Positions 8,505 through 63,747 of a DNA stretch of 64,000 nt are shown here, piece by piece. Location of the stretch: positions 1 to 64,000 of the forward strand of contig JAQBNK010000083.1 in assembly GCA_028288595.1 (NCBI GenBank), in the 5' to 3' direction. The translations under genes were made by a program, and so were the position numbers. Numbering within the stretch: the first letter of the stretch is position 1; every line of letters begins with the position of its first letter. This DNA is from Chitinophagaceae bacterium. Lineage in GTDB: Bacteria; Bacteroidota; Bacteroidia; Chitinophagales; Chitinophagaceae. Below the pieces are notes generated by a model that was not told where the DNA came from, made no database searches, and saw nothing but the letters and a program-made list of their open reading frames with translations.

Positions 8505-9220
8505 GCAGCCTGGGTTGAAAGGAATTTTACAAAAGTTCTTTTTGCTACAGGTAATAATGTTTCTTCAACAGGAAAGCTTAAAGCGCTTTCAATACTATAA
8601 ACCGCGGGATTAGGAAAATCAGAACGGTTGCGTATTAGTTCTGCTTTTATATTTTCATAAGTATTAACGAAGTTTCTTGTCCAGCTTTGGATAAATTCAG
8701 TTTTAAGGCTGCGGTATTTTTCATCATGCTTCTCAAAAATAGAAAGCCGGTATTGATAGGCATAGGTGGCTTTTTCAGCTTCACGGCTTAATAAAATATA
8801 ACCTTCTTCATATGCTAATGGCATAATTCCAACGGGAGTAATAGTGAGATTTTCTTCTACAAATTCATATATCTCTGCGCCATTGGTAATGGTGCTTTGC
8901 ATTTTTCCTGCGGCGTATTGAATGATCTCTTCCAGTTCCTGCATCATCTCATCATCTTCTATCATTTGTTCATAAAGCAACTGGAGTTTTTCAATCTGGA
9001 TGCCCGTTAAACGCTTTGGAAACTGGTCCTGGAGAAACTTTTTATTCTCCCTGAAAGCCACAATATTATTATAATGAAAAACGATATCTGCTAGTTGAGG
9101 ATATAACTTATTCTCAGTAAAATAAGTATTCACTTCTTTCAGGTAGGCGAGGAGCGTGTACTTTTTCAACTCGAAATCAATATAGCCGTCTGCAAACCAG
9201 GTTTGTGATAAGCTTTTCAT
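8501..9220 (-). CDS. Conserved-type hypothetical protein, largely helical
   Basis: A 239-aa protein without signal peptide or membrane segment, so probably cytoplasmic. The sequence is rich in long amphipathic helices with many Glu/Lys (for example IEKLQLLYEQMIEDDEMMQE and FEKHDEKYRSLKTEF) and aromatic residues. No enzyme motif or DNA-binding motif is visible. It is convergent with the secreted protein gene and overlaps it by the stop codons. Coding is supported by full-length codon usage like its neighbours and the lack of a competing frame. Function unknown. Confidence 0.65.
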   Translation of the reverse strand: MKSLSQTWFADGYIDFELKKYTLLAYLKEVNTYFTENKLYPQLADIVFHYNNIVAFRENKKFLQDQFPKRLTGIQIEKLQLLYEQMIEDDEMMQELEEIIQYAAGKMQSTITNGAEIYEFVEENLTITPVGIMPLAYEEGYILLSREAEKATYAYQYRLSIFEKHDEKYRSLKTEFIQSWTRNFVNTYENIKAELIRNRSDFPNPAVYSIESALSFPVEETLLPVAKRTFVKFLSTQAA

Positions 9221-9365
9221 TCCTTTCCGTTTATACTGTTAATATATATAAAATTCCCTGCCAAAAAATTCGGTAGGTTGTTAATTTCCCACAGGATGGT
9301 TATAACTATTTGACTTCAGTTATCAGTGAAAGATTAGTTAATGCTCCTAAAAAGACAAAGCTTAG

Positions 9366-9602
9366 GGAAATCGAAAATCGAAAATGGAAAATCGGAAATG
9401 AAACATCAAAAGAGTCAAGATTATTTTGGCTCATGAAAGATGAAGCTCAGGGTAAATCGAAAGTGGAAAATTTAAAATCGAAAATGATATATCAAGAGAG
9501 AGATACATTATTTTGGTTGATGTAAAAGAAAGAAAATTGAAAATAAAAAATTCGAAAATAGTAATCACCCATTTTCGATTTTAAATTTTCCACTTTCGAT
9601 TT
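9366..9602. repeat. Heptamer repeat tract (AAATCGA word) with a 33-bp perfect inverted repeat
   Basis: Non-coding stretch between the divergent helical-protein gene and the E2 gene end. 9366-9403 is a run of 7-bp units (GAAATCG, AAAATCG, AAAATGG, AAAATCG, GAAATGA). A second run at 9454-9486 is the exact reverse complement of 9570-9602, a 33-bp perfect inverted repeat with an 83-nt loop. An imperfect direct duplication of about 57 bp (starting near 9391 and 9475, sharing ATTATTTTGG) lies within. The right arm ends two bases before the E2 stop codon (9604-9606). A 71-codon reading frame through 9310-9525 is an artefact of the repeat. Confidence 0.85.
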
Positions 9603-9603
9603 C

Positions 9604-10950
9604 CTAAAAGACTTCCCTGTCCCTATCCCAGCTTTCAAATTCCTTCGCCACCTGCGTAAGGAATGAGGCGCCAAGACTACCATCAACAATGCGGTGGTCA
9701 TAACTTAAAGAAAGGAACATCATATGACGGATACCAATTGTATCACCCTGTTCGGTTTCAATAACAACAGGTCTTTTTTTAATGGCGCCAACTGCAAGTA
9801 TCGCAACTTGTGGTTGATTAATGATGGGTGTTCCCATCAGGCTGCCAAAAGTCCCCACATTTGTTAAGGTGAATGTTCCGCCGTTAGTATCGTCAGGTTT
9901 TAATTTATTATTTCTTGCATTATCGGCCATCGTATTTACCGCTTTACTTAGACCAACCAGGTTTAAATAATCGGCGTTGCGTATAACAGGAACGATCAGG
10001 TTGCCTGTTGGCAATGCTGTTGCCATGCCGATATTGATATCTTTCTTAATGATGATCCTGTCGCCGTCAAGCGAGCTGTTGATCAGGGGAAAACGTTTGA
10101 TCACTCTAACTAAACAATCAATAAAAATAGGTGTGAAGGTGATCTTTGTGGATTCTCTTTTCTCAAAATCCTTTTTTACTTTTTCTCTCCACAAAACCAT
10201 ATTGGTAACATCAGCTTCAGCAAAACTCGTTACATGCGGGCTGGTATGTTTGCTGTCTACCATGTGTTTCGCAATCAGCTTACGCATTCGATCCATTTCG
10301 ATGATCTCAACGTTAGAGCCGTATTCAGTTGGCGGTTGTTGTTTGCCGGTTGGCGGTTGAGAATTGGCTGTTGACGATTGCGACCTTTCCTGTATTTTGC
10401 CAACTGCCAGCTGCCCACTGCCAACTGGCTTTCCCGACTGCACATACTGCAAAATATCTTTCTTAGTAACCCTTCCTTCATTTCCGGTACCGGGAATATT
10501 TTCCAATTCGCTCATACTTATCCCTTCGCTGTTGGCGATGTTCAGCACAAGTGGTGAATAAAAGCGGTTACCACTTCCGCCTTTCATGCTCGGTTGTGCA
10601 TGTTGCGGCTGAGGTGCATAAGGTACTTCATTCGCTTTTGTTTCTGGTTCGGGAGGAGATGCCTTAGGCGCAGTCGCCGTAGCAGGCGCATCAACAGTAA
10701 CAGATCCGTTCGCAATTTCTATTCTTGCGATAACAGTTCCTATCGGAACCACATCGTTTTCTTTAAACAATACTTCGGTAATAACACCTGCCGCAGTAGA
10801 AGGTACTTCGCTGTCAACTTTATCTGTCGCAATTTCCAAAACGGTCTCGTCCTGTGAAACGGCGTCTCCAGCTTTTTTATGCCACTTTAAAACAGTGGCC
10901 TCCATAATACTTTCACCCAATTTGGGCATCAACAGGTCAACAATTGCCAT
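9604..10950 (-). CDS. 2-oxo acid dehydrogenase complex E2 (dihydrolipoamide acyltransferase)
   Basis: Acyltransferase core of a 2-oxoacid dehydrogenase complex (pyruvate, 2-oxoglutarate or branched-chain type), moving acyl groups from lipoyl-lysine to CoA. Domains in order: lipoyl domain 1-80 with the lipoylated K44 in ATDKVDSE; Ala/Pro linker 85-125; peripheral-subunit-binding domain about 128-170; second linker; catalytic domain 212-448 with DHRIVDG (H419, D423). The second linker (residues about 174-209) is encoded by a heptamer repeat like those found between genes, which is very unusual. The E3 partner may be the LpdA at 26942. No E1 genes are adjacent, so the substrate is undetermined. 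Confidence 0.92.
   Translation of the reverse strand: MAIVDLLMPKLGESIMEATVLKWHKKAGDAVSQDETVLEIATDKVDSEVPSTAAGVITEVLFKENDVVPIGTVIARIEIANGSVTVDAPATATAPKASPPEPETKANEVPYAPQPQHAQPSMKGGSGNRFYSPLVLNIANSEGISMSELENIPGTGNEGRVTKKDILQYVQSGKPVGSGQLAVGKIQERSQSSTANSQPPTGKQQPPTEYGSNVEIIEMDRMRKLIAKHMVDSKHTSPHVTSFAEADVTNMVLWREKVKKDFEKRESTKITFTPIFIDCLVRVIKRFPLINSSLDGDRIIIKKDINIGMATALPTGNLIVPVIRNADYLNLVGLSKAVNTMADNARNNKLKPDDTNGGTFTLTNVGTFGSLMGTPIINQPQVAILAVGAIKKRPVVIETEQGDTIGIRHMMFLSLSYDHRIVDGSLGASFLTQVAKEFESWDRDREVF
10327..10430. repeat. Heptamer inverted-repeat tract inside the E2 coding sequence
   Basis: Left arm 10327-10382 is eight consecutive 7-bp units (AGTTGGC, GGTTGTT, GTTTGCC, GGTTGGC, GGTTGAG, AATTGGC, TGTTGAC, GATTGCG). 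Right arm 10396-10430 is five units of the opposite orientation (TTTGCCA, ACTGCCA, GCTGCCC, ACTGCCA, ACTGGCT). The same vocabulary occurs in intergenic sites at 11040 and 32915. It is translated as the Gln/Ser/Pro-rich E2 linker; because 7 is not a multiple of 3 the units are read in all three frames in turn. Confidence 0.85.
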
Positions 10951-17098: not shown

Positions 17099-20000
17099 AT
17101 GCAATTCACCGGCCGATTCCTTACCGTAACGATTGCCTGTTTGTCATTATCTGTTTCAGGTTTTGCCCAGGCAACAATGGTTAATAACGATCCTGACGCT
17201 GATTTTAAATTAGCCAAAGAGTTATACCAGAAAAATGAATTTAGCCTGGCCTTCCCGCTGTTTCGCACGCTGGCGCAGGAAACGAACAGGAGAACCAATC
17301 TACCAGTTGAGACTGAACTTGAACTGAAATATTATTCTATTGTTTGCGGGTTGAAGCTGAATGATGAAACACTCCTTAAGCCGGCACTTGATTTTATTGC
17401 GCTTGAACATGCAGAGCCCAGAACAGAAATGATGTCTTTCCAGGTGGCCGAATATTATTTCAGGCAGCAGAAATATTCTGACGCTGCGGATTATTATAAT
17501 AAGACCAACATCGCCAACCTGAGTAACCGGGAAGTAGCCGATATGAAATTTCATCTTGGCTATTCTTATTTTACGATGCAGCAATTAGAAAAAGCCTATC
17601 CTTTATTTAATACCATTCGTCAAATACCCGCCGATCCTAATTATATAGATGCGAATTATTATTATGGATTTTTATCTTTTTATGATAAAAACTATAACGA
17701 AGCTTTGAACTCTTTTAAAATCGTTGAATCGCAGCCTACTTACCAGAACATTGTTCCTTATTATGTTGCTCAGATCTATTATTTTAATGGCGATAAAACA
17801 AAAGCGGCTGAATATGCAGCAGCGTCTTTGAAAAGAGGCGGGCAATATTATGATCTTCAGCTAAAACAACTGGTGGGTCATATTTATTTCGAGGAGCAGG
17901 AGTTTGAAAAAGCATTGCCTTTTCTTGAACAATATGTTAGCGCTACGGAGAAAGTGAGGAGAGAAGACTTGTATGAATTGTCTTACTGTTATTATGTAAC
18001 CAAACAATTTAACAAAGCGATCAGCGGGTTTAAAGAATTGGGTGGTAAAGAAGATTCGCTGGCTCAGAACAGTATGTACATGCTGGCAGATTCGTATTTA
18101 AAAACGAACCAGAAGAACAGCGCCAGGAATGCATTTTTGTTTTGCGCATTGAACAGCAGTAACGCCGTTCAGAAAGAGATTTCGCAATTTAATTATGGCA
18201 AACTTTCTTATGAATTAGGTTATACGAGTGTTGCACTGAGTGAACTGCAAAAATATATTACAACTTACCCGCAGTCGACTAACATTGCCGAGGCAAGAGA
18301 ATTACTGGTGAATGTAATGGCGAACAGTAATCAATATAAAGATGCATTGGAGCTGATCCAGGGTTTTAATATCCGCAGCCAGTCAGTCAATAAAATTTAC
18401 CCAAAAATATTATATGGCAGGGCGGCTGAACTGATCAATGATCAGCAATTGACTTCCGCGGATTCATTATTAAACATCATTACCGTTATACCTAATAACG
18501 AAGAGCTGTTACCGTTCGTGCGTTTCTGGAAAGGAGAGATCGCTTTCAGGAATAATATGCCTGATTCAGCTGTGTCTTATTTAACACGTTATCTCGATCA
18601 TCCCGCAACGAACGGAGAAGTGAATGTGAACAATGCCCGTTATACACTGGGATATGCATACATGCGGGAAGACCAATACCAGGCTGCGTTACAGCAATTC
18701 GGAAGTATTGTATCAGCGGTTAGCAGGAGCTCATCACCAATGGAGCAGGATGCGTATTTACGCATTGCCGACTCGTACTTCATGCTGAAAAATTATACAA
18801 GAGCATTGCAGATGTATGATATTGTGTTGAACAATGACCTGCAGGGCGCTGATTATGCATTGTATCAAAAAGCGGTGATCAGCGGTGCAAGCAATCGTAA
18901 TAACGAAAAGCTGACGTTGCTTCAATCGGTTTCACAACGTTTCCCATCTTCCGCATTAGTGGGTGATGCTTATATGGAAATGGCGAACACTTATCTTTCA
19001 AATGAAAATTACCGGGAGGCAATTAAGCCACTTAATAGTGTACTGGCTGCGAAAAATGCAGAAGGCTTAAAACCGCAGGCTTATTTAAAATTAGGTGTGG
19101 CTTATTTTAACCAGGATGATAACAACAGTGCTTTAACCAATTTTCAAAAACTGATCAGTACTTATCCTAACTCGCAGGAAAGCGACCAGGCTGTGGAATA
19201 TGTTAGAAATATTTTTATTGAAACCCAAAGACCCGCAGAGTTTGTAGCATTCATGCGCCAGAACGGTAAACAGGTGAGCTATAGTGAAGAAGATTCATTA
19301 AGCTATGTTGCTTCTAACATGCGCTATGAAAGTAAAGATTATGAAAGCGCATTGAAAGGCTTTCAATCTTATTTGCAACAGTTCCCCCAGGGAAAATATG
19401 CAGTAGAGGCCAATTACAATACTGCTGTTATCTACAACACACGCAAAGATTTCGCGAATGCTTTAAGATATTATTCCGCGGTTGCTGAAAAGGCGCCTAA
19501 TAAATATGCAGAGCAGAGTGTATTGCAGGCGGCAAGGATCAGTTATTTTGAATTGAAAGATTATGCAGCGGCACAACAATATTTTAACCTGTTAAAATCG
19601 ATCGCCACCACTCCGGAAAACAGGCTTGAAGCGATGCGGGGATTGCTGCGTACACAATTTAAATTATCTCAGTGGACGGAAGCCGGCGCTAATGCGCAGG
19701 ACCTGTTATTGCAAAAAGGAATAGCTGCTGATGATAAGATGATGGCCAATTTAGTAATCGGAAAAAATGCCCAGCAAAATAACCAGTTGGAAGAAGCATT
19801 AGCCGCTTACCGTTCTGTTGTTGCTCTTGGTAAATCAGAGTTTTCTGCTGAGGCCCGTTATCACATCGCTGAAATATTAACCCAGCAAAACAAATTACCG
19901 GATGCAGAGAAGGGGGCTTTTGAAGTAATCAATAAATCGGGTTCTTATGATGTGTGGATCACAAGAGCATATATTTTATTGGGTGAAGTTTATTTCAGGC

Positions 20001-52689: not shown

Positions 52690-52763
52690 GGCTGCGTAGC
52701 TCAATTGAATAGAGCATCTGACTACGGATCAGAAGGTTTCAGGTTTGAATCCTGACGCGGTCA
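52690..52763 (+). tRNA. tRNA-Arg (anticodon ACG)
   Basis: Cloverleaf can be folded by eye: acceptor GGCTGCG with CGCGGTC, D-stem GCTC/GAGC, anticodon stem TCTGA/TCAGA with loop CTACGGA (anticodon ACG), and T-stem TCAGG/CCTGA with loop TTTGAAT. Discriminator A at 52763; no encoded CCA. The T-loop has TTTGAAT instead of the usual TTCGAAT. It reads CGU codons (and CGC/CGA after A-to-I editing). The accessory island starts immediately downstream, so the gene is a plausible integration site. Confidence 0.9.
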
Positions 52764-52770
52764 CTTGAAA

Positions 52771-52797: not shown

Positions 52798-53368
52798 ATT
52801 TGACCGACCCCTTTGATTTTTCATTCAGTCTATTGATTATCAAATAACTATTTGCAGTATGCTTGAAATTATGTTCGTCCTTTTTTTCTTTAGGGTAATC
52901 AAACTCCTGTTGGAAATTGAATCTCAAAAAATTTCGATTTTTCAAATTTGCAAACAATTTGCAAACATTTTCTAAAAATTGCTTGATTTTAAGCGATTTG
53001 TTTGTTGCATATTTTTTTCAAAAAGCAAAGAACTATTCAAAGCAAAATTAAAAGATTTCATAGTTCATGGGTCAAACAATAAACAATATTATTTAGACAT
53101 TTATATTTAATCCTACTGTTGGCTAAAGTGTTTTTTTGATTTTCAGTAGCAACTGGCGGCCGGTTTTTTTCAAGCCATACATGATACCACTAAAAATAAT
53201 TGACAAAGTGAGTAGCACAGTTAATGTACATTTTGTTCATGGGGCAATCATATTTTCCCTGACACACAAAAGGCTTTTGCCGTTGCAAAATGCCGACACA
53301 TATTACGTGGGTAACTTTTATTAAAGTAAACTTATATTCCAAGGTTAATTCAGGAAATTCGTCTAAGT
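52798..53368. other. 571-bp gene-free stretch at the island's left edge
   Basis: No convincing gene; a 62-codon frame at 53136-53324 has no coding features. It holds a perfect 11-bp tandem repeat ATTTGCAAACA at 52946-52956 and 52957-52967. A small inverted repeat ACTTT/AAAGT lies just before the PIN gene (around 53313). The composition is more A/T-rich than the core region. Confidence 0.5.
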
Positions 53369-54664
53369 ATGAACCACCTTTTTCTCGACACAAACATTTT
53401 TCTTCACTTTCGTGATTTCGACCAGATCGACTGGGCGGCATTATTAAATTCAAATGGGCCATTTGAATTTATGATCGCACCGGCAGTAATGGCCGAACTG
53501 GATGCGCATAAATACAACGCTTCAAAAAGAGTATCCAGAATTGCAAAAAAAATACTTCCCCGAATTGAACAAATAATTGAAAACCCGACTCTATGCCGTT
53601 ATGGAGTTAATTATATTATTAGACAACCTCGTACTGAAATTTTTGACCTATACCAGCTTGATAAAAATGTAAAAGATGATTGTTTGCTGGCCTCCATAAA
53701 ACAGTACATCAATGAAGAAAAAAAAGATCCCGTATATTTTGTTACACATGACGTGGGGCCTCGTCTAAAAGCCCAACAACTTGGGATCACTACTATTCGA
53801 TTACCTGAAGAGTTTATGCTGCCCGAAGAGTTGGAAGATGTAGAAAAGAAAAATAAGGCCTTGACAAACGAGCTTGCCGAATTAAAAAAACGTTTACCAG
53901 TGCTGAAGCTTGTTTTTAAAGATGGCAATGAATTTCTGCATGTCAACGCACGTCAAGAAATAGTTGGGAGAGCCCAATATGTGGAGCGAGAAATGGCCAA
54001 ACTGAGATCCGAGATTTCGTATCTCACATATTTTGAAACTGATGCGAGCGCCGATCAGACAGGGCTGCGTGCTGCTTTCGCTTTCCATGCCAGCCTGATG
54101 GGATTGAGTAAGGACCAGGTCAAAGATTACAATAAAGAGCTGGACAATTACTTTGAAAAATCTAAAATATTTTTCGCACAAGAATATGACGTGTATTTGT
54201 TTCGATATAATATGGAAGCAATAAAACTGACTTTGAAAAATTCGGGTACTACTCCGGCAGAAGATATAGATATTGAATTGCACATTCCTGATGGACCTGA
54301 TGTGTTGGCGGCAAAAGACGTTCTTAAACACAAAAAGAGGCCGGAAGAGCCTCATAGGCCAAAGAACAGGTTTGATTTTTACTCACCAGTCATTTCAAAT
54401 ATCCTGAGCCCCTTGCGTTTAAGTGAGGGTGTTTCTTCAATCAACCAAATTACCAGGGAACCATCAATCAAAAAAACTAATAGTTATAATGTAAAATTTC
54501 ACCACGCTGGCCTTAAACACCACCAAGAGGAAACATTTCATTCATTTTATTTAAAGTATAACGATATAAGGAAAGCCGAAAATTTTTCAATGAGTTATAA
54601 ACTCACAGTTGCAAATTTGCCCCAGCCTGTCACAGGCAACTTGCATGTCAAGTTTGAAAAATAG
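53369..54664 (+). CDS. PIN-domain protein with coiled-coil and C-terminal beta domain
   Basis: A 431-aa protein. Residues 1-145 are a PIN ribonuclease domain with acidic residues D7 (LFLDTNIF), E43 (AELD), D103/D104 (KDDCLLAS) and D128 (THDVG) in the expected order. Residues about 152-215 are a predicted coiled coil (VEKKNKALTNELAELKKRL, YVEREMAKLRSEI). The C-terminal ~200 residues contain beta-rich blocks (EAIKLTLKNSGTTPAEDIDIEL). Toxin-type PIN proteins are ~130 aa, so this three-part form is unusual. It is followed 36 nt later by a HEPN-motif gene on the same strand. Function inferred: RNA cleavage. Confidence 0.75.
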   Translation: MNHLFLDTNIFLHFRDFDQIDWAALLNSNGPFEFMIAPAVMAELDAHKYNASKRVSRIAKKILPRIEQIIENPTLCRYGVNYIIRQPRTEIFDLYQLDKNVKDDCLLASIKQYINEEKKDPVYFVTHDVGPRLKAQQLGITTIRLPEEFMLPEELEDVEKKNKALTNELAELKKRLPVLKLVFKDGNEFLHVNARQEIVGRAQYVEREMAKLRSEISYLTYFETDASADQTGLRAAFAFHASLMGLSKDQVKDYNKELDNYFEKSKIFFAQEYDVYLFRYNMEAIKLTLKNSGTTPAEDIDIELHIPDGPDVLAAKDVLKHKKRPEEPHRPKNRFDFYSPVISNILSPLRLSEGVSSINQITREPSIKKTNSYNVKFHHAGLKHHQEETFHSFYLKYNDIRKAENFSMSYKLTVANLPQPVTGNLHVKFEK

Positions 54665-55808: not shown

Positions 55809-56696
55809 ATGAACTCCGAGCTCGTCAATAAAATTAAAAAAATAGCAATTATCGCATTGGCGTCTGATGATAAATTAATAGAAACAATTGTTCTTAAAGG
55901 CGGCAATGCCATTGATCTTGCATGGAAACATGAGTTTGATAAAATATCCAGAACTTCTTATGATCTCGATTTTTCAATCGAAGACGGTGATTTTTCTGAA
56001 GATGAAAAAGACATCTCGGAAAGAATTGAAAAAACTCTGGCTGCTACATTTTTAGAAAATAATTACGTTGTACTGGACTACAAATTTGTTCATAAACCAA
56101 AAACCATTAAGCAGGAAGTCGCTGATTTTTGGGGTGGTTATAAGGCCACTTTTAAAGTCATTGACAAAAAAGTGTATGACACTTTACCTCTGAACCCTGA
56201 TGCATTCAGAAGACACGCCGTTCCTTTGAAGCCGGATACCTCCCCTGTCTTTGAACTTGAGTTCAGTAAATATGAATATATAGGCGAGAATAAGACTGAA
56301 ATTAAGGTTGATGGATATACCATTTATGTGTATACCCCTGAAATGATTGTTTTCGAAAAGCTCCGGGCTCTCTGCCAGCAACTGCCCGCTTACAGGGCCA
56401 TACTGCCTTCACATTCGCCAAGGCCGCGGGCCAGAGACTTTTATGATATACACCTGATCATGTCTGTGCATACGATCGATCCAGGATCTGAAGGAAATAA
56501 AGAACTCATCGCCCATATATTTGAAGCGAAAAAAGTACCGTTAAGCTTTATCCGGGATATCCGGTCGAGCAAAGATTTACACAGAGATGACTGGAATAGT
56601 GTTGAGCATACCGTGGATGTAACAGAGAAGCTGGAAGACTTCGATTTTTATTTCGAATATGTTCTCGAGCGTTTTGAGGGGCTTACATTCCCTTAG
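55809..56696 (+). CDS. AbiEii/AbiGii-family nucleotidyltransferase toxin
   Basis: A 295-aa AbiEii-type toxin (type IV toxin-antitoxin). The core GGNAIDLAWKHEFDKISRTSYDLDFS contains the glycines 31-32 and the metal-binding D52/D54. RARDFYDIHLI (about 216) matches the conserved C-terminal helix of the family. Known relatives transfer nucleotides to tRNA or inhibit growth. The gene is on the plus strand and converges with its likely antitoxin, overlapping it by 14 bp at the 3' ends, instead of lying downstream of it as in the classical operon. Confidence 0.88.
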   Translation: MNSELVNKIKKIAIIALASDDKLIETIVLKGGNAIDLAWKHEFDKISRTSYDLDFSIEDGDFSEDEKDISERIEKTLAATFLENNYVVLDYKFVHKPKTIKQEVADFWGGYKATFKVIDKKVYDTLPLNPDAFRRHAVPLKPDTSPVFELEFSKYEYIGENKTEIKVDGYTIYVYTPEMIVFEKLRALCQQLPAYRAILPSHSPRPRARDFYDIHLIMSVHTIDPGSEGNKELIAHIFEAKKVPLSFIRDIRSSKDLHRDDWNSVEHTVDVTEKLEDFDFYFEYVLERFEGLTFP

Positions 56697-57549
56697 GATA
56701 ATAGATCATCCAGTCCTCAGAATAAGCTTTTTGCCCCATCTCGTAAGTAAGATAAAATCTACGGTTTTTTTTCTTTTCCTTTAATAGAGTCAACTTTTTA
56801 GATTCGTAGCCAGCTCGCTCCATATAAAACCCAATTGCCTGGTGATAGGGATAAATAAAATTCATGGCATCAAGGATAGCTATTAGTTTGTTAATGGATA
56901 TGCTATCCATTGCTCTTTTGTATGCTTCCAGCACGGCATCGACTCCGCCTGCATACAAGGGTCTAACAGTTATATCAATCAGTGTTCTTTCCAATCCCGT
57001 AACAGGCACATTTTCAATGGTAGTAACACCGGCCCGGTTTGTATTCATTCCGTTAAGAATGATAATTTCATAGTCCTCGTAAATAACTTTAGAGATGGCC
57101 TTCCGCTGTGGCTTTGAGAACGCGGCATCAATAGCTGCCTGTTCCAACGTTCGGTTTGTATTAATTTTTTTTGATTGCTCAAAAGTCGAATAAATTCTTT
57201 TGGGTACCTGGGTAGTCAATCCGTTTAAGAAAACGGCAGTATAATGCGATATATAGGACTTATTAAACAGAGATACGGCCACTTGGTATGGGGTGGCTTC
57301 ATCTGAAATAAATCGTTCCTTTTTTCCAACGAAACTTTCAAATTCAATTACCTGTTTTTTTAAAATACCCCGCTGAAGTAATTGCTCAATAAACTTGTCT
57401 GGATAGGTAGATAAGGGAAGATTCCAGATGCCCCGTCGTTCTTCAAATATTTCTTTGATTTCTTCCCTTGAAAAAACCTTTTTTGGACCCTTGGTAAAAA
57501 AAGATTTGATCGAAGACTCCGCAATAATAAAGCGAGATTTATTAGCCAT
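56683..57549 (-). CDS. AbiEi-family antitoxin/regulator
   Basis: A 288-aa protein of the AbiEi type: N-terminal winged-helix region (KVFSREEIKEIFEERRGIWNLP, 20-45; LLQRGILKK about 62-71) and an AbiEi-like C-terminal domain (SYISHYTAVFLNGLTTQVPKRIY, GVTTIENVPVTGLERTLIDITVRP). The family binds inverted repeats near its promoter and represses it. Here three palindromes sharing GTATATATAC lie upstream (57553-57804). It is transcribed toward the toxin gene, so transcripts overlap antisense. Confidence 0.86.
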   Translation of the reverse strand: MANKSRFIIAESSIKSFFTKGPKKVFSREEIKEIFEERRGIWNLPLSTYPDKFIEQLLQRGILKKQVIEFESFVGKKERFISDEATPYQVAVSLFNKSYISHYTAVFLNGLTTQVPKRIYSTFEQSKKINTNRTLEQAAIDAAFSKPQRKAISKVIYEDYEIIILNGMNTNRAGVTTIENVPVTGLERTLIDITVRPLYAGGVDAVLEAYKRAMDSISINKLIAILDAMNFIYPYHQAIGFYMERAGYESKKLTLLKEKKKNRRFYLTYEMGQKAYSEDWMIYYPKGM

Positions 57550-57552
57550 AAT

Positions 57553-57578
57553 GATATAAAGTATATATACTTTATATC
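57553..57578 (-). promoter_or_regulatory. Palindromic operator 1 of the AbiEi gene
   Basis: 26-bp perfect palindrome centred on GTATATATAC, with outer arms GATATAAA and TTTATATC. It ends 4 bp from the antitoxin start codon. Confidence 0.68.
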
Positions 57579-57686
57579 TTCAAAGTTACAATTTTTTCAT
57601 GACATATATAGTTGAGTCCAGGAAATATTTTTCGGGAAGTAAAGAAATTAGCAGGAGAACTGGAGAAGAGAGGATTATGAGGATAC

Positions 57687-57706
57687 TTAAAGTATATATA
57701 CTTTAA
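57687..57706. promoter_or_regulatory. Palindromic operator 2 upstream of AbiEi
   Basis: TTAAAGTATATATACTTTAA, a 20-bp perfect palindrome with the same AAAGTATATATACTTT core as operator 1, 131 bp centre to centre from it. Confidence 0.6.
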
Positions 57707-57779
57707 ATAAAGTTAAGAAATATTCTTTAACTCAAAAATTCGAGTGAAATACCTAATATTTTTACATTAACTGCTATAT

Positions 57780-57804: not shown

Positions 57805-57904
57805 AAGTTACAGGATTTAATTGATATTTCAAAATCGAATCAGGATCAAGTCGTTATAGAACAAATTCTGAACGGCCCCCGGGGGTATCAATAAAGTGTT
57901 TTTA

Positions 57905-59032
57905 TTACTTAAGCCTAAGATAATTATTTTGAAGTCCTTTCATTTCTCTTGCTACTTTGGTATCAGAAACTTCTGTATAAAGCTGCGTGTAAGTGATAGT
58001 GCTGTGACCAAGCATTTTTGAAATCCCTTCAATTGATGCCCCATATTTCAGGGCGAAGCTGCTTGCAAAAGTTTTTCTACCTGAATGACTGGAAATCTTT
58101 TTATTAATACCGCAGGCAGACATAATTTTCAGTAGCAACAGATTATACATTGTGAGACTATGCATAGGGAAAAGTGCACCCGGCACTCTTGGTTTGGATT
58201 TTATTTCCCAGGAGCCTGATGTTTGAATAATCTTTAGGGCTTTTGGTAAAAGCGGTACAGAAGTTCTGTTGCTCGTTTTTCGGCGAAACAAAATGATCCA
58301 TTGATTGCCATCAACGCCTGTAAAAAGGTGTCCCTGTTTTAAATGCAAGAGGTCCGAATAAGACAGCCCTGTATAACATTGTAATAAAAACATTTGCTTA
58401 ACAAAATTATGAACATGATTGCTAAAGCGTGTTTTTGCCAAAAGCCCGAATTCAGCGAGCGATAGGCAAGAGGTAGTCCCTTTAATTTGTTGTCCTTTGA
58501 ATTTGAAGAATGGGCTGTGTTCAAGCCAACCATTTTTTACTGCAAAATGAATGATCCATTTTAAATTCCTGCAATGTCCATCACATGTATTAATAGAATT
58601 TCTTCTTATTTTCAATATGTATTGTTTAAAGGCCTCAATAAACCCAACATCGAGATAGCGTAGCTCAATGTGATCCAGTTTAGTCAGGGATAAATACTGT
58701 TTTAAGACAAGCCTTGTCTGGCGGTAACGCTCCACAGTACCCTTTGCAAAATCGAGACCACAGCGTTTTTGAATATGGCCGAAATGTAATTCTACAAGTT
58801 GCGAAAGTTTGGTTTGTCCGCCGGGTTCATCGAAAACACTGTAAAACAAAACGGAACATTCAACCTTCCCTTTGACCAAAAGTTCCCGGTATTTCCTGAT
58901 AATAAAGCAGTGCAGCAGCTTTTGCCAAAGGGGTTGCGGAAGTTGTGATTTAAATAATTTTGTTCTTGACAGGCCGTTAAAATCTATGCATAGCTTATAA
59001 CCCTTGAAGCTGACCGCCAGTTTATTTTCCAT
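57905..59032 (-). CDS. Tyrosine recombinase, IntDOT-like
   Basis: A 375-aa phage-integrase-family recombinase. Catalytic positions visible: H316-x2-R319 in SSHSGRKTFASSF, H343 in LGHSTITYTQ, and nucleophile Y352 in TQLYTEV. The first conserved arginine box reads YTGLSYSDL, with serine where most integrases have arginine, as in the CTnDOT integrase. The N-terminal ~100 residues are basic and beta-like (arm-binding type), followed by the SAM-like core-binding domain (about 85-180). Overlaps the next recombinase gene by 11 bp, so the two are translationally coupled. Confidence 0.87.
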   Translation of the reverse strand: MENKLAVSFKGYKLCIDFNGLSRTKLFKSQLPQPLWQKLLHCFIIRKYRELLVKGKVECSVLFYSVFDEPGGQTKLSQLVELHFGHIQKRCGLDFAKGTVERYRQTRLVLKQYLSLTKLDHIELRYLDVGFIEAFKQYILKIRRNSINTCDGHCRNLKWIIHFAVKNGWLEHSPFFKFKGQQIKGTTSCLSLAEFGLLAKTRFSNHVHNFVKQMFLLQCYTGLSYSDLLHLKQGHLFTGVDGNQWIILFRRKTSNRTSVPLLPKALKIIQTSGSWEIKSKPRVPGALFPMHSLTMYNLLLLKIMSACGINKKISSHSGRKTFASSFALKYGASIEGISKMLGHSTITYTQLYTEVSDTKVAREMKGLQNNYLRLK

Positions 59033-60014
59033 TCATAGCTTTTTTTATTTTTTTCATATCTGAGGCCACCAGCAAATCCGAGGAAAATGCGTGTTTTTGT
59101 GTGTACCTCACACGGGTATGTCCCAGCATCGCGGATAAAGATTCTAAAGACAATCCCCCCGCCAGTGCAATGGTTCTTGAAAAAGTTTTACGTCCTGACT
59201 GGCTCGTTATGTTACGGTCAATTTCGCAATGCTTCATGATTTTTGCCAGGTGAAGGTTAAACCTGTTGACATTAAAAAGGGGAATTAGCGCTCCGGGAAT
59301 ATATTGAAGGGCCTGCACGTAATATCTTTGTAACCGGGCCAGCGCTTTACCTGATTCAGGTAGAAGAGGGATAGCTGACCGAACATTATTTAGTCGTTTT
59401 AGAATAATCCAGTTTTTCCCGTCTCGTTTTACGAGATTATCTTTTTTCAGGTTCTTCATATCCATGTAACCCAATCCTGTATAACACTGGAAAATAAAAA
59501 CATCTCTTGCATAAGATAGATAACGGTGTGGAAAATTTGCCTGGCGAATACGTTCCAATTCCTCCAGGCTTAGCCACAAGCGGTCATTTGTTTTTTGCAG
59601 GCATTTAAAATGAAGGAAGGGGTTATGGGAGATGAATTTTTTTTGGACAGCATAATTTAGAATCCGCCTAAGGTTAGAACATAACCTGGCTGCATAATTT
59701 CCGCATGATTTTTTTGATGAAAGAATATACAGTGCAAAATCATCGATAAGTTGGTACATGATATCTCTTACCTGTATATTACTGCATCCATTATATAGCA
59801 GGAAAGCTTTTAATTTTCTCTCTGTAAACGCGTATTGCTTATAGGTACTTGAGGAAATTGTTTTACCAACTTCTGATTTTCTTTTCCTATTGTAACTTTT
59901 TACCAGGCTAACCAGGGTCATAGAACCTTTCATACCTTGCTCTATTTCACCTGTGAGAAAATCTAGATTTTCATTTTCCTTCTTTATCATTTCTACGTAG
60001 CGGTCTAGCAACAT
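59022..60014 (-). CDS. Tyrosine-recombinase-like protein lacking the catalytic tyrosine
   Basis: A 330-aa integrase-family protein similar in domain order to its downstream neighbour. HxxR reads Q272-S-G-R275 (SQSGRKTF), so the histidine is replaced, and the position of the nucleophilic tyrosine is histidine 308 (YTQKHAF against YTQLYTEV). H299 in LGHTRV is kept. The first arginine box has TGLGYMDM. It therefore probably cannot form the covalent DNA intermediate and may be a structural or regulatory partner. The overlap with both neighbours (10 bp and 11 bp) points to an operon of three recombinases. Confidence 0.8.
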   Translation of the reverse strand: MLLDRYVEMIKKENENLDFLTGEIEQGMKGSMTLVSLVKSYNRKRKSEVGKTISSSTYKQYAFTERKLKAFLLYNGCSNIQVRDIMYQLIDDFALYILSSKKSCGNYAARLCSNLRRILNYAVQKKFISHNPFLHFKCLQKTNDRLWLSLEELERIRQANFPHRYLSYARDVFIFQCYTGLGYMDMKNLKKDNLVKRDGKNWIILKRLNNVRSAIPLLPESGKALARLQRYYVQALQYIPGALIPLFNVNRFNLHLAKIMKHCEIDRNITSQSGRKTFSRTIALAGGLSLESLSAMLGHTRVRYTQKHAFSSDLLVASDMKKIKKAMNGK

Positions 60015-60048
60015 ACCCGTAGTGCGGGAAACATATTCGTTAATGCCA

Positions 60049-60064
60049 GAGGCCTGGGGGCCTC
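60049..60064. repeat. G+C-rich palindrome GAGGCC-TGGG-GGCCTC
   Basis: Perfect six-base arms in an A/T-rich island, near the start of the tyrosine recombinase-like gene. A comparable G+C palindrome CCCCCGGGGG (57876-57885) lies near the end of the other tyrosine recombinase gene, so the pair is flanked by both. Confidence 0.45.
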
Positions 60065-60074
60065 CCTACCATAC

Positions 60075-60107
60075 AAGCCGGAAAAATCTGATTTTTCCGG
60101 CTTTTTT
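60075..60107 (+). terminator. Intrinsic terminator-type hairpin inside the serine recombinase 3' end
   Basis: A 13-bp perfect stem (60075-60087 with 60091-60103, core AAGCCGGAAAAAT) followed by a T-run on the plus strand. It stops plus-strand transcription; on the minus strand it lies within the apparent coding sequence. Confidence 0.6.
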
Positions 60108-61574
60108 AATTCGCTGAAACACTGACCCAGACTGCATATCACTGCAATGGGCTGAGTGAAATTAATAGTTCGACATTTTTTTCTGTCAAAAATGATTTTT
60201 TGAGCAAGTATCGAACTTATGATTTCTCTTTTCGTGCAGATGTCACCGTTAATATAAAGCTTGTCCAAATGAGATAATGTATCAACGGCACGTTCAACGA
60301 ACTGCTTTGCGTTCGAATTTTGTTCGCCCGGTGTTATTGCAAGTAGTTTGGTTTCAAGAACCTTCAACTTCTCTTCGCAATCACTTTTCATTATGCGGTA
60401 GTCACCTGGATCGATTTTTCCTTCCATTAAAAGTGTCCTGGCCTTATTTAAGCGATCATTAACCGCATTGATTTGTATTGTTACAGTTTTTATTTCGTCA
60501 TCGGCCGATTTAGTATTTTGTTTATAAACATCATACAATATCTCTTTATAAAGTTCAGAGTAGGCTTTAACTGGTACAAGATCCTTTAGTTCATTCAGGA
60601 AAAGTTCGTTCGCTTTTTGTGCATTGATCCTGAACTTGCAACCACCACGGCAATGATAATAATGCACACGTTTAGTGAACCCCGTCGATGCGCTGCCTGA
60701 TAACTTCAGTCCATAGTCTGGACACTCTAAAAACCCTCTCAATGGAAGATTTGGATCTCCTGTTTGTCGGGGCTTATAAATCCTGCTGCGACAGTTAAGA
60801 ACATCCTGAACTTTATAAAACAAACTTGTAGAAATGATGGGCTCATGAAGGCCTTGCACGATTATTGACTGTTCATCTTTGAAGGCGGGGATAAAAATCA
60901 TGCCGCAATAAACCGGGTTACGGATACAATCCCAAAAAGCGCACTTATTTCTTTTAAATCCTTTGGCTTTCGCCTGCATAAAGATATCCTCGGTGTTGAA
61001 TACTCCTTCAGCCAGTTTGTTGAAAGCCCATATCATAATTTTACTTTCTTCGGGGTCAGAAGCAATATATTTTGTTCCGTCTTCCCTCGTTTTATTTTGT
61101 AACCGAAGGGAGCACTGGCCATCCACCGCCCTTCCTTCTTGGCTCTTCTCATTCCAAAAAAAACATTAAGCGATCTACGGTCATTTTCCACTTCCGGCGC
61201 GGCAAGATAAAAAGCTAGCATCATCTTGTTTTCAGGAATCGAAAGATCAAGGGGTTGCTCTATTGCTTGGGGGTCAACACCAAATTTGCGAAGTGTGCTG
61301 ATCATCTGGTATGCATCCCCTGCATTCCTGGAAAAACGATCCCATTTTGTAAAAAGTAGTAGATCTACTTTTCCTTTTTCTTTTTTGAGATGCGCCAGAA
61401 AATTATTCCATCCAGGTCTGTTGAATGTCTTTGCAGAATAGTCTTCCCGAATAACATCACGTACGATGATTTTATTATTGTCACAATAACGGCGCAATAC
61501 TTCCTCCTGGTTTCTTTGGGAATACCCTTTATCAGCTTGCTCATCGGTACTAACGCGGATATACAAATCTGCTA

Positions 61575-61721
61575 TCATTTTACCTTATTTTGATATTGTA
61601 TAAATGCGATATTAGCAATTTTGTACAGAAGGGTCAAAATCCCTTTAACCTCGGTGGGGTCTGGATTGACACCATGTTTGCGCAAAATTTCCAGAGCTTT
61701 CTCAACGTTAATATTTTCCAC
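61575..61721 (-). CDS. Small conserved-type protein upstream of the serine recombinase
   Basis: A 48-residue frame starting at GTG 61721 (or TTG 61730). It begins MENINVEKALEILRKHG and continues VNPDPTEVKGILTLLYKIAN. Its TGA stop overlaps the recombinase ATG (ATGA, 4 bp), a strong sign of translational coupling. It has the helix pattern KALxILxKHGxxVxxxEVKxIL that I recognise from short proteins next to Bacteroidota serine recombinases; function unknown. It is too short for usual gene finders. Confidence 0.65.
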   Translation of the reverse strand: MENINVEKALEILRKHGVNPDPTEVKGILTLLYKIANIAFIQYQNKVK

Positions 61722-61956: not shown

Positions 61957-62056
61957 GGCCATTTGACAGCCAAGGCAAACATGTGCGGAGGGTCTGCAAC
62001 GGTACCAGTTAAATCACCGGTTGATATCTCCGCTATTTCGAGAAGCGGGTTCCGAT
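61957..62056 (-). pseudogene. Decayed radC fragment
   Basis: 61981-62052 matches the radC gene region 63482-63553 with 59 of 72 bases identical by my count, including GGGTCTGCAACGGTACC and GATATCTCCGCTATT. Upstream similarity fades near 61957. The matching part encodes the DPRHIFALALKANAV region, without the JAMM motif, so only a remnant remains. No open frame spans it. Confidence 0.7.
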
Positions 62057-63276: not shown

Positions 63277-63747
63277 TTAAATAAGGCCCTCATCTGCGAA
63301 AGAATAATACTGGTCACTGCATATTATTAGGTGATCGAGAATTTTGATATCAAGCAATGCACCGGCCTGCTTTAATTTCTCCGTAAGACTCTCATCTGCC
63401 GCACTCGGTTTGAGGTTGCCACTCGGGTGATTATGTGAAAGAATTATTGCAACGGCATTTGCTTTAAGAGCAAGTGCAAAAATGTGGCGAGGGTCTGCAA
63501 CGGTACCCGTTAAGCCGCCACTGGATATCTCCGCTATTCCGAGGACGCGGTTCGCTTTATTTAATAACAAAATTTTAAATTGTTCCACCAGTTCAATTTT
63601 GTCCGGATCCCATGAACTAAGTAAAATCTGAAATGCTATTTTCGAATCGGATATTTGAGGTCTGTTTGAGGCCCTTACTTTTGTTCTGTATACCAGTTCC
63701 ACTTCAGCAATACTGAAAGTTGATTCTAAGTTCATTTCCTGTTTCAT
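63277..63747 (-). CDS. RadC family (JAB/MPN+) protein
   Basis: A 156-aa JAB1/MPN+ metalloprotein. The JAMM residues are E55 (ELVEQFKIL), H105 and H107 (SHNHPSGN), S109 and D118 (KPSAADESL). GTVADPRHIFALALKANAVAIILSHNHPSG is typical, written here as the span 81-110. It lacks the N-terminal helix-hairpin-helix of chromosomal RadC, as usual for plasmid and island copies. Function is undecided; these short forms are associated with mobile elements. A decayed second copy lies at 61957. Confidence 0.87.
   Translation of the reverse strand: MKQEMNLESTFSIAEVELVYRTKVRASNRPQISDSKIAFQILLSSWDPDKIELVEQFKILLLNKANRVLGIAEISSGGLTGTVADPRHIFALALKANAVAIILSHNHPSGNLKPSAADESLTEKLKQAGALLDIKILDHLIICSDQYYSFADEGLI

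Follow-up and report, generated by a model that had tools for sequence, protein, structure and literature searches.

Layout of the locus

The four minus-strand open reading frames (ORFs) at 57905-61721 of the window, by which we mean the whole 64,000-nucleotide stretch of Chitinophagaceae DNA analysed here, are probably a relic in which a serine integrase of a tRNA-targeting family has been fused to the inside of an older tyrosine-recombinase gene. As a relic the locus is ordinary, apart from one unusual feature: the joint lies inside the integrase gene of another element. The ORFs and their overlaps of 4, 10 and 11 bp, as given in the original prediction, proved correct on re-check (Table 1). 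The 4-bp overlap between the small ORF and the serine gene is a real association which recurs in relatives. The homology of tyrosine recombinase 1 (recombinase 1) runs upstream of its own ATG into the serine ORF, so the 10-bp overlap is a read-through of the junction by the serine frame and not operon design.

Table 1. Coordinates of the features of the locus in the window
Feature	Position	Strand	Details
Small ORF	61575-61721 or 61730	-	48 or 51 aa depending on the start codon
Serine integrase, N-terminal catalytic part	61033-61578	-	181 aa; Pfam Resolvase 2.8e-25
Serine integrase, C-terminal part	60005-61126	-	373 aa, other frame; Pfam Recombinase 2.5e-9
Terminator-like hairpin, end of the serine element	60075-60103		13-14-bp arms; same place as the hairpin in relatives
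Predicted element end, hairpin to target	60058-60074	-	17 nt; placed from the family spacing
Junction, putative integration joint	60054-60059		Onset of tyrosine-recombinase homology
Tyrosine recombinase 1, 5'-truncated	59022-60059 (ORF 59022-60014)	-	ORF of 330 aa
Tyrosine recombinase 2	57905-59032	-	375 aa
tRNA-Arg(acg)	52690-52764	+	3' end points toward the recombinases

Decay of the serine integrase

The large serine recombinase of the original prediction is not intact. Its Resolvase and Recombinase domains lie on two frames split by a frameshift, whereas in the relatives both domains are present in one protein. By descent it is a broken member of the large serine integrases: its catalytic domain is 64-83% identical to those of the 88 family loci described below, and in a tree of 89 rows its protein groups with that of locus L144 with a support of 97. 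Most relatives (among the matches listed) have a single frame of about 475-640 aa, and a programmed frameshift is therefore unsupported. A shortened ORF despite a long flank is seen in 4 of the 88 loci.

For the protein alignment the two frames were joined by an X and compared with 29 relatives from 294 sampled genomes of the family. A zinc-ribbon cysteine, present in 29/29 relatives, is replaced by tyrosine in the window, and in all 14 invariant or near-invariant columns are altered, this cysteine among them. The end branch of the window's protein in the tree is 0.91 long as compared to a median of 0.041. An error of assembly or sequencing in a serine integrase that is in fact intact and active, which would fit either account of the seam given below, agrees with the presence of one single shift near A-rich sequence and with an N-terminal domain that shares up to 83% identity with relatives. 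We nevertheless consider such an error unlikely, since the lost cysteine, the altered columns and the long end branch indicate decay independently of the shift.

Targets of the serine-integrase family

The serine recombinase comes from an integrase family that is found throughout Bacteroidota. Two sets of relatives were used: the best 29 loci outside the window's own genome, from the sample of 294 genomes of the family, and a wider set of 88 loci (80 from genome and 8 from viral contigs) which is partly shared with the first. In 27 of the 29 loci the integrase gene has an antisense tRNA gene at its 3' end, which overlaps the ORF in 26 of them, and a tRNA is found at the same end in 62 of the 82 wider-set loci with enough flank. 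Isotypes at these loci include Lys, Arg, Leu, Pro, Met, Val, Cys and Gln, and L147, L195 and L198 are among the relatives that target Arg(acg). Among the 20 loci without a tRNA, in 14 the hairpin is followed, as judged by eye, by part of a tRNA 3' end, of variable length, and then by unrelated sequence, which is as expected for a free element or a stacked neighbour; five of these 14 are viral contigs. In the remaining six the integrase is the upstream one of two consecutive serine integrases. In one 10-kb relative element (L130) a 13-bp direct repeat of the tRNA end is present at both ends.

The distance from the 3' end of the hairpin to the end of the T-stem could be measured in 47 of the 62 tRNA loci: 28 have 17 nt and 13 have 19 nt, with six outlying values (7, 14, 16, 18, 22 and 30 nt). 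The family layout accordingly runs from the integrase gene at the element end through a terminator hairpin to a join with the target 17 or 19 nt further on, at the T-stem/T-loop boundary of an antisense tRNA gene; the tRNA position is observed and the exact crossover presumed. With this layout the frame of the integrase continues into the tRNA.

Tyrosine recombinases are rare near these integrases. Any such gene occurs in the flank (up to 8 kb) of only 2 of the 88 loci, in neither case as an adjacent pair, and no match to either tyrosine recombinase of the window was found within the 1.5-kb flanks of the 29 loci. The serine recombinase thus occurs elsewhere without the tyrosine pair, an outcome which the original prediction had taken beforehand to mean a chance neighbour.

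Two serine integrases about 3.3 kb apart are present in L159, L165, L170, L176 and other loci of the tRNA-Lys clade. In the paired loci of this clade a small partner ORF is located upstream of the first integrase, an arrangement reminiscent of paired serine recombinases.

The small partner ORF

The 48-aa ORF of the window belongs to a family of partner ORFs of ~45-60 aa adjoining these serine integrases, and a similar small ORF is located just upstream in 66 of the 88 loci. With the serine integrase it forms the only recurrent gene pair among the four ORFs. A profile of 16 small proteins, run against 20,747 ORFs, gave 82 matches, of which 68 lie within 700 nt upstream of an integrase, 13 about 3.3 kb upstream (at loci mostly with a second serine integrase there) and one elsewhere; these counts are not independent because the profile was built partly from the same loci. 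The window's ORF of 48-51 aa matched no Pfam, NCBIfam or PHROGs family, and two of its relatives had no match in PHROGs.

The architecture of the family is more interesting than the window's own locus. Tentatively, a Bacteroidota-wide family may recognise the T-arm end of many tRNAs, with the mostly adjacent protein of ~50 aa acting as a directionality or targeting factor, and the window copy may have missed its tRNA and cut the tyrosine integrase gene of a rival at the equivalent point. If true, targeting of the T-arm at a fixed distance in many tRNA isotypes would offer ready-made attB sites across Bacteroidota, and a tRNA-targeting family of large serine integrases would be a test case for target switching by such enzymes. 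The classic users of tRNA genes as targets are tyrosine integrases. Titles, beginnings of abstracts and passages of the open-access literature contained no report of tRNA genes in Bacteroidota as targets of serine integrases, which is weak evidence of absence as subscription papers and preprints fall outside this scope.

The tyrosine recombinases and their remnant on a second contig

Recombinases 1 and 2 both match tyrosine-recombinase models and are about 33% identical to each other. Recombinase 1 is missing its first ~62 residues. In a comparison with 40 distinct tyrosine-recombinase relatives, its catalytic His is changed to Gln, its nucleophilic Tyr to His, and the conserved Lys falls in a gap, while each of these residues is present in 40/40 relatives; it therefore lacks the His and Tyr of an active recombinase. 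Recombinase 2, the first ~43 residues of which matched poorly, keeps the catalytic Lys, His, Arg, His and Tyr and so, at the sequence level, has the residues expected of an active enzyme. No close relatives of recombinase 1 were found in genome contigs and none of recombinase 2 in viral contigs. The closest relatives elsewhere (L014-L019) show no more than 38% identity and are single genes in loci of ~3-4 kb.

Another contig of the same genome, C121, carries pieces of recombinase 1 (codons ~10-111) and of recombinase 2 (codons ~330-375) fused into one remnant, which is 91-96% identical in DNA to the tyrosine pair and has no serine gene. The 3' half of the tRNA-Arg is repeated (89%) on C121 close to this remnant. 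The tyrosine pair thus seems to have been mobile as an independent unit.

Further traces were observed on both contigs. At 53124-53153 of the window there are adjoining short matches to the end (57892-57910) and the interior (58125-58139) of recombinase 2, perhaps another deleted copy. On C121 a 445-aa tyrosine recombinase (8597-10210 of locus L007) adjoins the repeat of the tRNA-Arg 3' half, and mobilization-type genes are located further along (17206-17999); this region is probably another tRNA-Arg island.

These results bear directly on the mixed recombinase operon that had been proposed for the locus. The tight overlaps on a common strand and the intact catalytic residues of recombinase 2 would suit a functional operon in which recombinase 2 is helped by a split serine recombinase and a catalytically dead tyrosine recombinase. 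We regard this as highly improbable and reject the operon: the serine gene has a frameshift and has lost its zinc-ribbon cysteine, recombinase 1 is truncated at the junction, the remnant of the pair in the same genome has no serine gene, and the same gene order, which had been sought in other genomes, was seen in none of the 29 and 88 loci. What stands of the four-gene set is that its ORFs and overlaps exist and that the small ORF and the serine gene recur; the serine gene is split, and recombinase 1 lacks His and Tyr.

The seam between the two elements

The hairpin ends at 60075, and the spacing of 17 or 19 nt, which holds in 41 of the 47 measured relatives, puts the predicted joint at 60058 or 60056. 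When the sequence before the ATG of recombinase 1 was compared with profiles of tyrosine-recombinase relatives, the homology began at 60059 (model position 63 of 404) with the profile of the six closest relatives and at 60056 with that of 40 relatives. The predicted joint coincides with the onset of tyrosine-recombinase homology, so the seam is most likely an integration joint, inside a tyrosine-integrase gene that replaces the tRNA as target. The earlier suggestion of two elements joined by insertion fits, and a seam between two elements is supported.

In this sequence of events the target at the equivalent place would be codon ~63 of recombinase 1, where the junction is observed, and the integrase itself probably made the joint. 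The insertion would have taken away the 5' end of recombinase 1; both recombinase 1 and the serine integrase have the losses described above, and these presumably arose since. With the joint inside recombinase 1, the four ORFs would thus be neighbours across a seam. A protein-gene target would be exceptional, because each of the 82 relatives with flank is explained by a tRNA, a partial tRNA or an integrase pair. The locus also warns that ORFs which overlap at an attachment site can mimic an operon, where an integrase frame simply continues into its neighbour.

Unlike the relatives, the window has neither a tRNA nor a partial tRNA after the hairpin. Rfam gives nothing tRNA-like at the junction, its sole tRNA being the tRNA-Arg at 52690, and the 17 nt between hairpin and target bear no resemblance to a tRNA end. 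The 3' end of tRNA-Arg in particular, considered as a candidate, was seen at the junction neither by eye nor by Rfam. This bears on a different history, in which a tyrosine-pair island and a serine island both used tRNA-Arg and were stacked there until a deletion fused the serine element at its end with the interior of recombinase 1. The tRNA-Arg has the same orientation as the tRNA targets of the family, and Arg(acg) is targeted by relatives as mentioned above; its 3' half adjoins the remnant of the tyrosine pair on C121, which itself has a deletion. Against these points, a random deletion need not stop so close to the predicted joint (about 3 nt) and no tRNA-Arg end is visible at the junction, and we consider stacked islands an unlikely origin of the seam.

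Integration into recombinase 1, the preferred reading, would leave an opposite joint. No 11-mer of the junction target (60030-60073) is repeated to the right of the element on contig C177, and one is found at C121:22753, within unrelated sequence. A second copy of the 17-nt junction pattern is absent from the genome with up to 3 mismatches allowed, and tblastn for the opposite joint found nothing. Profiles gave no N-terminal fragment of recombinase 1 on C177 and C121, nor genome-wide, where the search had no positive control and the empty answer shows little. A weak tblastn match at C121:19533 (E 0.005) was dropped as it has stops in all three forward frames. The contig ends ~32 kb further on, so the opposite joint could be hidden if the element is long, if a deletion occurred or if the assembly has a gap.

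Neighbouring features

Upstream of the small ORF, a short radC-like remnant (61962-62052; about 84% DNA identity over 73 bp) adjoins an intact radC at 63277-63747. On the other side, an AbiEii-like toxin on the plus strand and an AbiEi-like protein on the minus strand face each other at 55809-57549, and near-palindromic TAAAGTATATATACTTTA repeats, possibly an operator, adjoin this pair at 57554-57708. A PIN-domain protein at 53369-54664, between the tRNA-Arg and the recombinases, is cargo.

Comparison with known systems

Recombinase-in-trio elements have three adjacent tyrosine recombinase genes with small overlaps. The locus is similar in its adjacent recombinase genes and small overlaps, but it contains two tyrosine-type ORFs in place of three in a row, one of them dead, and a split serine integrase. 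The Bacteroidetes integrative mobilizable elements MTnPi1-3 carry a duo of tyrosine integrases (passages of PMC5704250), comparable to recombinases 1 and 2 except that one of the two is dead in the window.

Streptococcal ICEs with single serine integrases, as described in passages of PMC4701971, have one direct repeat inside the integrase gene, and insertions disrupting the gene of another ICE (traG) as well as secondary sites have been reported for them. The locus resembles them, by this description, in its single serine integrase and in the probable insertion into a gene of another element, whereas their targets are the protein genes rumA, mutT, traG and hsdM and those of the present family are tRNA genes. 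A Riemerella island was considered as a serine-integrase precedent and set aside, as the available text describes a tyrosine integrase (PMC6764341).

The DsiB islands at ssrA (tmRNA) of Dehalococcoides, according to passages of PMC3146451, insert in the middle of the T-loop of the tmRNA and form stacked islands with direct repeats, and at its 3' end the gene for their serine recombinase overlaps attL and continues into ssrA or the neighbouring island. The serine frame of the window would run into its target in the same manner, as the frames of its relatives run into tRNA genes. The two systems differ, as far as the same passages describe DsiB, in host (Dehalococcoides versus Bacteroidota), in target (a single-copy tmRNA versus many tRNA isotypes) and in the proposed partner, which is the smaller serine recombinase DsiA there and a protein of ~50 aa here.
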